Positions 58,765-61,642 of a DNA stretch of 64,000 bases are shown here, piece after piece (position 1 is the stretch's first letter; every line of letters begins with the position of its first letter). The DNA is from Lachnospiraceae bacterium (GTDB lineage Bacteria > Bacillota > Clostridia > Lachnospirales > Lachnospiraceae). A program made the position numbers and the translations under genes. The stretch lies in the NCBI GenBank assembly GCA_029225065.1, contig JAQXVT010000037.1:1-64000 (forward strand), given 5' to 3'. The notes below the pieces were generated by a model. It saw only the letters and a list, made by a program, of their open reading frames with translations, did no database searches and was not told where the DNA came from.

Positions 58765-59532
58765 ATGAAAGTATATTCGTTTGGAAACACCAAGGCACCT
58801 GCAATTTTACTGCTTCCGGGCACCTGCTGCCACTGGGAGGGCAATTTCGGAGCGGTGATTCCGCTTCTGGATCAGGATTACCACGTGCTTTGTGTCAGCT
58901 ATGACGGATTTGACGAGACGGAGCAGACCGAGTTTTCGTCGATGCTGGAGGAAACGGAAAAGATCGAGGACTATATCAAACAGCATCTGGGCGGACGAAT
59001 CCGGGCAGCCTATGGATGCTCGCTTGGCGGTTCATTCGTCGGGCTTCTGGCTGCAAGGCAGAACATCCATATGGATTACGGAATCCTCGGAAGCTCCGAT
59101 CTGGATCAGACGTCGCCGTTTGTTGCAAAACTACAGACCGGGATTCTGATTCCGCTCTTGTATCCGTTTATCCGGAACGGAAAGTTCGGACTGCGCTTTC
59201 TGCAAAAAAGGATGGAAAAAAGTCTGGCGGAAAGAGGAGAATACGCCAGTAAATTTGTGGAAATGCTGGGCGGTGCGCGGCCTTATGTGACGAAGAAAAG
59301 CTGCCGGAACCAGTTTTACTCGGATCTGATCACAGCCCTGCCGGATCGGATCGACGTGCCGGGGACGGAGATTCATATTTTTTATGCACTGAAAATGGGA
59401 GAAAAATACCGTGCACGTTACGAACAGCATTTTGCACATCCGGTGATTCATGCGCAGGATATGCAGCACGAGGAACTGTTGGTCTGCCACCCTGGGCAGT
59501 GGGCACAGCTGGTGAAGAGCATTATCGGTTGA
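58765..59532 (+). CDS. Alpha/beta-hydrolase-fold protein
   Basis: 255-aa cytosolic alpha/beta hydrolase. LLLPGTCCHWEGNF (about 15-28) forms the oxyanion-side loop after strand 3, and AAYGCSLGGSFVGLLAAR (about 83-100) carries the nucleophile elbow GxSxG with Ser about 88; a late His, HAQDMQHEELLVCHPGQW, gives candidate catalytic His near 240. Substrate unknown; no lipase or esterase subfamily is clear. TCTGGAGGTAAGAC precedes the ATG. It has its own promoter and lies between spoIVB and the decayed cluster, so it does not appear to belong to the sporulation unit. Confidence 0.75.
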   Translation: MKVYSFGNTKAPAILLLPGTCCHWEGNFGAVIPLLDQDYHVLCVSYDGFDETEQTEFSSMLEETEKIEDYIKQHLGGRIRAAYGCSLGGSFVGLLAARQNIHMDYGILGSSDLDQTSPFVAKLQTGILIPLLYPFIRNGKFGLRFLQKRMEKSLAERGEYASKFVEMLGGARPYVTKKSCRNQFYSDLITALPDRIDVPGTEIHIFYALKMGEKYRARYEQHFAHPVIHAQDMQHEELLVCHPGQWAQLVKSIIG

Positions 59533-59604
59533 CGATATCGAAGAAAATGTGACCGGAGTCAGCCGGATGCAGGATCATAAAGAAAAGAAATCGAGATTTT
59601 GTTT

Positions 59605-59796
59605 TCAAATAACCATGAGAACGTGTTTATGTGTCAGTAGTTTTTTGACAGCGTTCTGATAGCTGTATGCATGATTTTCAGGATATCCGATCTCGTCAAT
59701 GGTGATCCATGCATCAGAGGAATTCAGAAAGGAATTAAAAAAGAAGTTCCTTTCTCGCAAAACGATTTCGGAACAGGCTGTATTCGATTTTCCGTA
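59605..59796 (-). pseudogene. Possible fragment of a THEP1-like nucleoside-triphosphatase
   Basis: A minus-strand frame ending at the TGA 59607-59605 reads VRYGKSN..., then AWITIDEIGYPEN and AVKKLLTHKHVLMVI. The IDEIGxxE element followed by a VL-x-VI strand resembles the Walker B region of THEP1/NTPase_1 proteins, which occur in molybdenum-enzyme gene clusters. No start, P-loop or ribosome site remains. It is in a different frame from the regulator remnant next to it. The assignment is tentative. Confidence 0.35.
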
Positions 59797-59831
59797 CCGG
59801 ACAGGTTTGGATCGAACCGGCCGGAAAAAGA

Positions 59832-59911
59832 GCGCAAAAGACGATATGGACCTTCGCCAAAGAATTTTTCATTGTTCTCATCAAAAAAATAATCTTTGTA
59901 ACTGCTTTCAT
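59832..59911 (-). pseudogene. Remnant of a ModE-like winged-helix regulator (frameshifted, truncated)
   Basis: A minus-strand ATG at 59911 has an excellent AGGAGGA site 9 bases upstream and begins MKAVTKIIF; after a run of seven T (A at 59883-59889) the frame must shift to continue as DENNEKFFGEGPYRLLR. That order is the N-terminus of ModE-type molybdate-responsive regulators of the kind linked to clostridial xanthine dehydrogenase clusters. Homology stops at about 59832, before the helix-turn-helix, so most of the gene is gone. Confidence 0.6.
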
Positions 59912-59926
59912 GAGATAACGTCCTCC

Positions 59927-59980
59927 TATGACATTTTTACCGTCATAGCCAGCTGACAGGTCGTTTACGGTTAACAGATT
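59927..59980 (-). pseudogene. Possible N-terminal scrap of an ABC transporter ATPase
   Basis: The minus strand encodes NLLTVNDLSAGYDGKNVI, the beta-strand 1 pattern (LLxVxxLSxGYxGKxVI) of ABC ATPases, cut off before the Walker A motif. It lies just upstream of the regulator remnant on the same strand. Eighteen residues only, so the call is weak; a molybdate ABC transporter would fit the setting. Confidence 0.3.
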
Positions 59981-60004
59981 CCTTCCGGATGCCTCCTCCT
60001 CAGA

Positions 60005-60150
60005 TACGGTGCAACACAGGGAATCTTTGCACTGGAGACATCCGTAAACGAACTTGCCGGGAAGCTGGGGATCGATCCGACGGTGCTCCGTGAGAAAAAC
60101 ATGCTTCGCGAGGGTATGAAAATGCCGGCTTATTACGGGGAAACGGCAAA
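60005..60150 (+). pseudogene. Fragment of xanthine dehydrogenase molybdenum-binding subunit
   Basis: The plus frame from 60005 reads YGATQGIFALETSVNEL, then AGKLGIDPTVLREKNMLREG and MKMPAYYGE. This is the xanthine oxidase/aldehyde oxidase family segment (G-x-Q-x-x-F-A-x-E-x-x-x-x-E-x-A-x-x-L-G-x-D-P-x-x-x-R-x-x-N). There is no start codon or ribosome site, and homology ends near 60150 where a permease fragment begins in another frame. Confidence 0.75.
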
Positions 60151-60161
60151 TGCCTGTGCCC

Positions 60162-60503
60162 TGGACCGGCGCAGTTTTTCTGATCCTTTGTGGACTCTGC
60201 CCGAAGCTTGCGGCGCTTGTTTCCATTATGCCGCAGTCTTTCCTTGGCGGTGCGGCTGTTATGATGTTCTCGTCGATCGTATTCAGCGGAATTTCCCTGA
60301 TCACAAAGACAGAACTTAATGCCCGGAATCTCTCTATTGTATCGGCGGCACTCGGCGTAGGCTATGGTATGGGAACCAATCCGGATATTCTTGTACATGC
60401 ACCGCAGCTGGTACAGCTTGTGTTCGGCGGTTCCGGGATCGTGCCGGCGGCGATGGCAGCGATCTTACTGAATATCATTCTTCCGAAAGAGGGGAAAGAA
60501 TAA
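60162..60503 (+). pseudogene. C-terminal fragment of an NCS2 xanthine/uracil permease
   Basis: About 113 residues from TGAVFLILCGLCPKLAALVS through MPQSFLGGAAVMMFSSIV to GGSGIVPAAMAAILLNIILP and the stop at 60503. MPQxxLGGAAxxMF is the NCS2 (UraA/XanP/PbuX) TM10 signature. The N-terminal ~330 residues are missing. It is fused, out of frame, to the xanthine dehydrogenase fragment, which marks a deletion joint at about 60150-60162. Confidence 0.85.
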
Positions 60504-60514
60504 TAAAAAATAAT

Positions 60515-60521: not shown

Positions 60522-60646
60522 TTTTTTGCTTTTTCACTCTAAAATCTGTCACAAATCGACTTTTTAAACGTTATTATCCTGTGTGGATTCAGATTTTCCG
60601 TGTAGAATTTTGACGATTCGTGACGAACGGACGGGATAAGATTTTG

Positions 60647-60674
60647 TTGCGGATATAGGGGATTGTTATATAAT
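60647..60674 (+). promoter_or_regulatory. Candidate vegetative promoter of spo0A
   Basis: TTGCGG (60647-60652), 16-base spacer, TATAAT (60669-60674), about 165 bases before the start codon. Confidence 0.45.
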
Positions 60675-60844
60675 ACAGTTAGTGTTTATTCGTGACAGTT
60701 TTTTTGTTCGGGCCCACGGAAAATTCGGCGAATCAACAACAAAATAGGGCAGAAAGCGTATTCTTCGGAGAAATGGCTGGATGTTGGCAGGAGTCATTTT
60801 TGCGGGAAAACGTCGACTGCTGAGGGTGAGGAGAGGAATATAGG

Positions 60845-61642
60845 ATGGAGAAGCTGAATATTGCGATTGCCGATGATAATGCGCTGATGGTGCAGCTGCT
60901 GGATCAGATCGTCAGCAGCGACGAAGAACTGAGAGTGGTCGGGAAAGCCGGAAACGGAGAAGAACTGATCGATATCATCAGAGAAAAGAAACCGGATGTG
61001 GTTTTGATGGATATTATCATGCCGAAGCTGGACGGACTTGCGGTACTGGATCGTGTCAATCACGAGCCTGAGATGAAAAAGCCAGCGTTTATTGTGATTT
61101 CAGCAGTGGGTCAGGAAAAAACGACAGAGGATGCGTTTGAACTGGGTGCGGATTACTATATTTTAAAACCATTTGACCGTGACACAGTCCTGAAACGGAT
61201 CAAGCGGGCACGTGTAAAACGTCCAGGATTTCCGGTAAAAATAAAAGCTGCGGAAACAAATGTAAATGAAAACGAATATCTGGAACGGAATCTGGAGACG
61301 GACGTCACCAACATCATCCATGAGGTAGGCGTACCAGCACATATCAAGGGCTATCAGTATCTGCGGGATGCGATTATCATGTCGGTCACCGATATGGAGA
61401 TGCTCAATTCGATTACGAAAATTTTATATCCGACGATTGCAAAACAGCACCAGACGACACCGAGCCGTGTGGAGCGCGCAATCCGCCATGCAATCGAGGT
61501 GGCCTGGAGCAGAGGCAAGATGGATACGATCGAGGAATTGTTTGGATATACGGTGAGCGGCGGAAAAGGAAAACCGACAAATTCAGAATTTATTGCACTT
61601 ATTGCTGATAAAATCAGGCTGGAATACAAAAATCGCAGATAA
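60845..61642 (+). CDS. spo0A: Sporulation master regulator Spo0A
   Basis: 265-aa response regulator. Receiver domain with IADDN acidic pocket (about 10-12), phosphoacceptor Asp in VVLMDIIMP (about 56) and the Lys of YYILKPFD (about 107); a linker (about 130-150); and the Spo0A C-terminal DNA-binding domain with [16 protein letters not shown] and [20 protein letters not shown] (about 205-224), the recognition helix, ending in [10 protein letters not shown]. All domains are complete, so the regulator should work. GAGGAGAGGAATATAGG precedes the ATG. In Bacillus it directly follows spoIVB; here 2.5 kb of other sequence is inserted. Confidence 0.97.

Follow-up and report, generated by a model that had tools for sequence, protein, structure and literature searches.

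The window analysed here, a stretch of 64,000 nucleotides of contig JAQXVT010000037.1 from a Lachnospiraceae bacterium, contains five gene scraps of a xanthine dehydrogenase (XDH)-type cluster, packed between an alpha/beta hydrolase gene and spo0A at positions 59581-60503 (923 bp). This region is very probably (about 0.93) a non-functional relic of such a cluster, and it encodes nothing still able to do the cluster's work. The remains of a nucleoside triphosphatase (NTPase), a ModE-like regulator and a FecE-type ATP-binding cassette (ABC) ATPase lie on the minus strand, and those of the molybdenum hydroxylase subunit XdhA and of an NCS2 permease on the plus strand, as follows:

59581-59831, minus strand: remnant of a THEP1-type NTPase, about 80 codons; its frame is broken near 59736-59745 and interrupted by TGA at 59607-59605
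59911-59832, minus strand: first 27 or so codons of a ModE-like regulator, with its ATG at 59911
59927-59921, minus strand: intact AGGAGGA ribosome-binding site before the ModE start, read directly from the sequence
59983-59927, minus strand: start of a FecE-type ABC ATPase, 19 codons, 18 of them matched at 59980-59927
60005-60169, plus strand: internal piece of XdhA (Mo subunit), 55 codons, approximately codons 375-429 of 766
60158-60169, plus strand: out-of-frame XdhA/permease deletion joint, placed by comparison with intact relatives
60165-60503, plus strand: C-terminal end of an NCS2 permease of the xanthine/uracil type, 112 codons followed by the gene's own stop

Identification of the gene scraps

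The minus-strand scraps were evaluated by running profiles of their relatives against the six frames of positions 59533-60510 and, as a chance control, against 1000 dinucleotide shuffles. The NTPase profile gave 54.9 bits for 59736-59584 but only 6.6 for 59816-59736, the ModE-start profile gave 41.8 bits and the ATPase-start profile 23.0 bits; the best shuffle scores were 6.2, 6.3 and 6.8 bits for the three profiles respectively, and none of the 1000 shuffles reached the real score in any case. The NTPase and ABC ATPase scraps, which the initial annotation had proposed for this strand, are thus upheld. The regulator frame is broken at a run of seven T (59889-59883), in agreement with the frameshifted ModE-like start, intact AGGAGGA site and break at a seven-base homopolymer described there, and the start codon of the ATPase reads AGG where 8 of the 10 relatives shown have ATG. 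A putative FecCD tail at about 60006-59971, which would have been a sixth piece, has a plausible frame, yet 454 of the 1000 shuffles scored as high and it was dropped.

The XdhA scrap shares 64-87% amino acid identity with intact XdhA proteins and scores 31.1 bits against Pfam MoCoBD_1 (cut-off 27); in NCBIfam its best match is a molybdopterin aldehyde oxidoreductase model (E 8e-8), with the XdhA model at E 2e-6. A PF02738 match starting at 59783 was rejected left of 60005 as a spurious extension, since that portion is read across stop codons and lies opposite the regulator, which is on the minus strand. The permease scrap reaches up to 84% amino acid identity and matches pbuX (E 3e-27) and ncs2 (E 1e-21). 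The fusion of the two fragments out of frame had been recognised from the outset, but the joint, then put at 60150-60162, lies slightly further right, at about 60158-60169, where GCCCTGG and ACCG(G) are common to both parents in a manner that would be consistent with deletion at short repeats. A recommended six-frame comparison found the scraps homologous to XdhA, the NCS2 permease, ModE, the FecE-type ATPase and the NTPase.

A complete XdhA with its cofactor-binding domains is missing from this genome: 55 of about 766 codons are left, no other copy was found, and the MoCoBD_1 (XdhA-type) domain has no match in the genome beside the scrap. The locus is therefore a relic of an XDH cluster and not a member of that class. 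Two near-full-length NCS2 permease paralogues are encoded elsewhere in the genome, making the permease scrap surplus.

The intact cluster and the extent of the loss

A profile search of genome contigs returned 351 stretches encoding a relative of the permease end, of which the best 80 were taken as named loci, a set from which records belonging or close to the window's genome may be missing. XdhA precedes the permease in 19 of these 80 loci, follows it in 36 and is absent from the available DNA in 25. Nine (L116, L117, L125, L128, L132, L134, L144, L147 and L159) have the full order of MocA, ModE, ATPase, FecCD and solute-binding protein (SBP) on the minus strand followed by FAD subunit, FeS subunit, XdhA and NCS2 permease on the plus strand, and the order and strand of all five scraps fit these nine loci exactly. 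The intact cluster measures 9.2-9.6 kb (L116, L117, L132), or about 9.4 kb, against the 923 bp retained in the window; some 8.5 kb, roughly 90%, has been deleted. Relative to L117 and L132, two of the loci with the full order, the deletions amount to about 2.1-2.3, 4.5-4.6, 0.73 and 1.0 kb, and the one between regulator and NTPase would be smaller relative to loci with the NTPase before MocA, such as L022. Fusions of MocA with the THEP1 NTPase exist in either domain order, as NTPase-MocA (L118:1628-2743) and as MocA-NTPase (L117:957-2105), and in L140 ModE is fused to MocA.

The ancestor would have consisted of two divergent arms, the leftward one encoding the SBP, the FecCD permease, the FecE-type ATPase, the ModE-like regulator and MocA/NTPase, and the rightward one encoding the hydroxylase's FAD, FeS and Mo subunits together with the NCS2 purine permease. 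Four internal deletions and one left-end joint would have removed most of this cluster, leaving the scraps in their ancestral order. When intact, the NCS2 protein would import a purine such as xanthine, the hydroxylase would oxidise it, MocA would convert the cofactor to its cytidine form, and a molybdenum-related substrate would be supplied by the ABC arm. Xanthine is the presumed substrate of the intact relatives, judging from the permease and the family; the XdhA of L117 scores 608.6 bits against the curated XdhA equivalog NF043082, under its cut-off of 780. With both arms still readable in the sequence, the relic shows in good resolution how deletions erased a metabolic cluster.

Age and order of the deletions

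In a tree of the permease piece and its 60 relatives, the end branch of the window is the longest. Third codon positions account for most changes on the window branch, 40 of 56 for the permease piece and 12 of 16 for the XdhA piece, and most of the divergence therefore arose while the genes still worked, before the loss. The permease piece carries four substitutions at columns that are at least 95% conserved, as against a mean of 0.67 in the other sequences, only 1 of 60 having as many; the XdhA piece, compared with 33 relatives, has none at such columns. The left arm (about 330 bases) carries three small lesions, the right arm none (p ~0.06). The initial annotation held that the joints would allow the order of events to be reconstructed. 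However, among the genomes compared no intermediate with a partly deleted cluster was found, and since the left-arm bias of the lesions reaches only this p value, no order of deletions is claimed.

Genomic place

The relic is bounded by two genes:

58765-59532: alpha/beta hydrolase gene (Pfam Abhydrolase_1), left neighbour of the scraps
60845-61642: spo0A, right neighbour of the scraps

It had been assumed that spoIVB and spo0A are usually adjacent and that the cluster once sat in the gap between them. Among 20 stretches upstream of spo0A from the genus (1.6-12 kb, some ended by contig ends), spoIVB is found in only three: G030 and G001, where it is inverted, and G036, where it lies 6.8 kb off. 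The neighbourhoods are highly variable, and the supposed usual adjacency is not borne out in this genus. At the two inverted loci (L073 and L080, respectively) spoIVB stands beside spo0A and is divergent from it, and in the window both are on the same strand. Matches to cluster proteins in the 20 stretches are limited to generic ABC ATPases (six) and one FecCD, so that the synteny comparison proposed in the initial annotation yielded no relative with the cluster in this gap (0/20). Conversely, neither SpoIVB nor a match to the adjacent hydrolase was found in the 126 XDH-cluster loci, and their Spo0A matches are distant response regulators (at most 34% identity). The proposal of a purine cluster lost by internal deletions thus stands as regards the remnants of a single cluster, on the strength of the nine matching loci and the sole MoCoBD_1 domain, but not as regards location: with XDH genes in 0 of 20 spo0A neighbourhoods, the ancestral place is unproven. 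Directly upstream of spo0A, a non-coding block (60632-60746) is 71-83% identical in 20 genomes of the genus and is probably the promoter and control region of spo0A.

Alternative explanations of the relic

Several observations weigh against reading the region as the relic of an XDH cluster. No XdhA, XdhB or XdhC gene was found in the 20 spo0A-upstream stretches, which are of unequal length; the window's joints were found in none of 46 other genomes of the genus and 396 others of the family, where the listed DNA matches stop at the joints; the ATPase scrap is merely 18-19 codons long; and no match was found for 59533-59580, the 48 bases that separate the NTPase scrap from the stop of the hydrolase gene. 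The lack of XDH genes beside spo0A, together with the wide differences between spo0A neighbourhoods within the genus, would also suit scraps that arrived already broken, by horizontal transfer or rearrangement, instead of decaying in place. This is unlikely, as deletions within a once complete cluster are the simplest way to leave five scraps with their ancestral order and orientation unchanged, and 9 of the 47 genus genomes have a related XdhA gene at 65% identity or more, other matches being at 24-29%. The source is a draft genome (3.18 Mb, 88 contigs, 96% complete), which leaves room for an assembly artefact joining unrelated reads, but the chance of this is close to nil: the five joints lie within 1 kb and all follow the gene order of one natural cluster, the scrap stretch had no second DNA match in the window's own genome, and the contig is 146 kb long.

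Reuse of the right arm would make the 117-amino-acid open reading frame at 60150-60503 (five new residues followed by the permease end) a working small membrane protein. This frame is open and has an ATG, the 112 permease codons are unbroken in contrast with the three left-arm lesions, and their changes are mostly at third positions. Such reuse is nevertheless very improbable, because the adjoining XdhA piece, which is unable to work, is equally unbroken, the location of all three lesions on the left has a p value of only about 0.06, the permease piece departs from its relatives at four highly conserved columns as described above, and the joint that creates the frame is seen in no other genome compared. 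A conserved arrangement with intact reading frames in other species, which had been raised as an argument against decay, is likewise not what the comparison of joints gave.

The importer arm and MoaC

The window's genome (G000) is without MoaC and the MoaA C-domain (PF06463), like 38 other genomes of the genus. This absence was considered as a sign of recent pathway loss, a reading that was rejected because 39 of 47 genus genomes are without the MoaA C-domain and 39 are without MoaC, genomes with intact XdhA among them; the same observation led to the importer. In intact relatives the arm is a type II (BtuCDF/FecBCD) ABC importer, with a Peripla_BP_2 SBP, a FecCD permease and a FecE-type ATPase encoded together. 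The window holds only a dead copy of it. The relic is assigned to the arm-bearing type because both ATPase and NTPase scraps are present, the NTPase being found in 21 of 36 clusters with the arm and in 1 of 25 without.

Clusters were sorted by the presence of the SBP-FecCD-ATPase arm beside XDH, and the same genomes were then searched for MoaC (PF01967). Within the genus, MoaC occurs in none of six genomes with the arm (G002, G003, G005, G030, G045, G046), all of which also lack the MoaA C-domain, and in two of three without it (present in G004 and G026, absent in G024). The set beyond the genus comprised 56 genomes, namely those of 50 of the 80 loci and six others, including G000 and G024 again; the 30 loci outside this count were nine with only the permease in the available DNA, three taken as G104, G413 and G024, and 18 others, eight of them with arm genes. 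In this set MoaC was found in 1 of 31 genomes with the arm (that of L146) and in 20 of 23 without (absent in L175, L192 and G104). The combined counts are 1/37 with the arm versus 22/26 without (Fisher p 6e-12), becoming 1/32 with the arm when restricted to clusters with XdhA in the available DNA, and 16/20 without the arm when Phascolarctobacterium is left out. Limited to the eight genomes of stated high quality, they are 0/4 versus 3/4 (p 0.14).

On an XdhA tree of 41 rows, where MoaC accompanies 1 of the 24 arm-bearing rows and 13 of the 17 arm-less ones, the arm state changes seven times on the best tree, five of these changes being forced by starred branches. Five independent pairs drawn from starred branches gave on average three in the same direction, none opposite and two tied (median p 0.25). 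The contrast between arm and MoaC is a correlation of consistent direction, and the tree-independent pairs are too few for significance. MoaA, MoaC and a MoCF_biosynth protein each occur near 4 of 25 arm-less clusters, and an SBP_bac_11 protein, read as ModA, near 5 of 25, with 0 of 36 arm-bearing clusters in every case; a ModB-like protein is near 3 of 25 and 1 of 36, respectively. The MoaA, MoaC, MoCF_biosynth and SBP_bac_11 neighbours come from only five loci (four Phascolarctobacterium, one Anaerostipes) and so add little independent weight. In the genomes compared, an XDH cluster has either the importer arm or, mostly, a MoaC-bearing genome and almost never both, an apparent case of gene substitution in gut Clostridia.

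What the arm may carry

It is tentatively suggested, from gene content, that the arm imports molybdopterin or finished molybdenum cofactor (Moco) from gut neighbours in place of the MoaA/MoaC pathway, which would explain many orphan molybdoproteins. MocA would then add cytidine monophosphate to the imported cofactor, and the THEP1 NTPase would perhaps trim imported dinucleotide forms. Salvage leads one to expect a Moco enzyme in genomes without Moco biosynthesis, and the combined MoaC counts agree with this. Alternatively, the arm of the intact relatives could resemble MolBCA and take up plain molybdate or tungstate rather than a pterin cofactor, which is less likely than not: molybdate alone should be useless without MoaC, absent in 36 of the 37 arm-bearing genomes, and the presumed ModA lies near 5 of 25 arm-less clusters and 0 of 36 with the arm, although those five are four of Phascolarctobacterium and one of Anaerostipes. 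The missing MoaC would be predicted by a cofactor importer and not by a molybdate importer. If cofactor salvage is true, purine oxidation in some gut bacteria relies on a cofactor made by others.

The SBPs of XDH clusters are nearest to PDB 4HN9 and MolA, with the fold of 4HN9/3PSA. The title of 4HN9, a protein of Eubacterium eligens, assigns it to an iron ABC transporter as solute-binding protein; it is related very closely to the XDH-cluster SBP, and its name may be wrong. With a solved close relative for a linked importer, the question of orphan molybdoproteins becomes directly testable.

Comparison with known systems

In the available parts of the reports on anaerobic purine/XDH clusters that include selD, yqeB and yqeC (PMC2276186; for C. 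difficile, PMC11448449), the features in common with the present loci are an XDH-type Mo hydroxylase, an NCS2-type permease and accessory genes such as mocA; in contrast to the clusters described there, the relic and its intact counterparts have a FecBCD-type ABC arm. YqeB is found near 2 of 36 arm-bearing clusters and 8 of 25 arm-less ones.

Cofactor uptake is touched on in several excerpts. C. elegans takes Moco from its diet, the transport route being left unexplained in the accessible text (PMC9793310); a genome report names an import cluster (PMC4511579), a Moco-uptake phrase is a model artefact (PMC3423039), and there is speculation on T11SS in the context of Moco uptake (PMC12282271), each as far as the available passages go. 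The term 'molybdopterin transporter' was not found in the literature searched, a body that mostly excludes subscription papers, so that its absence in print is not shown.

MolBCA of Haemophilus influenzae is a type II ABC importer of molybdate (PMC4031551, available in part), whereas the arm described here is linked to XDH and MocA, almost always in genomes without MoaC. In the portion available of PMC6147048, several hundred organisms have part of the trait, especially molybdoproteins without a complete Moco pathway; they are left unexplained there, the reasons offered being incomplete genomes, pseudogenes, new parts of the biosynthesis and independence of molybdenum. The arm-bearing clusters, with XdhA present and MoaC absent, are cases of these orphan molybdoproteins, and the linked importer offers a further possible reason for them.
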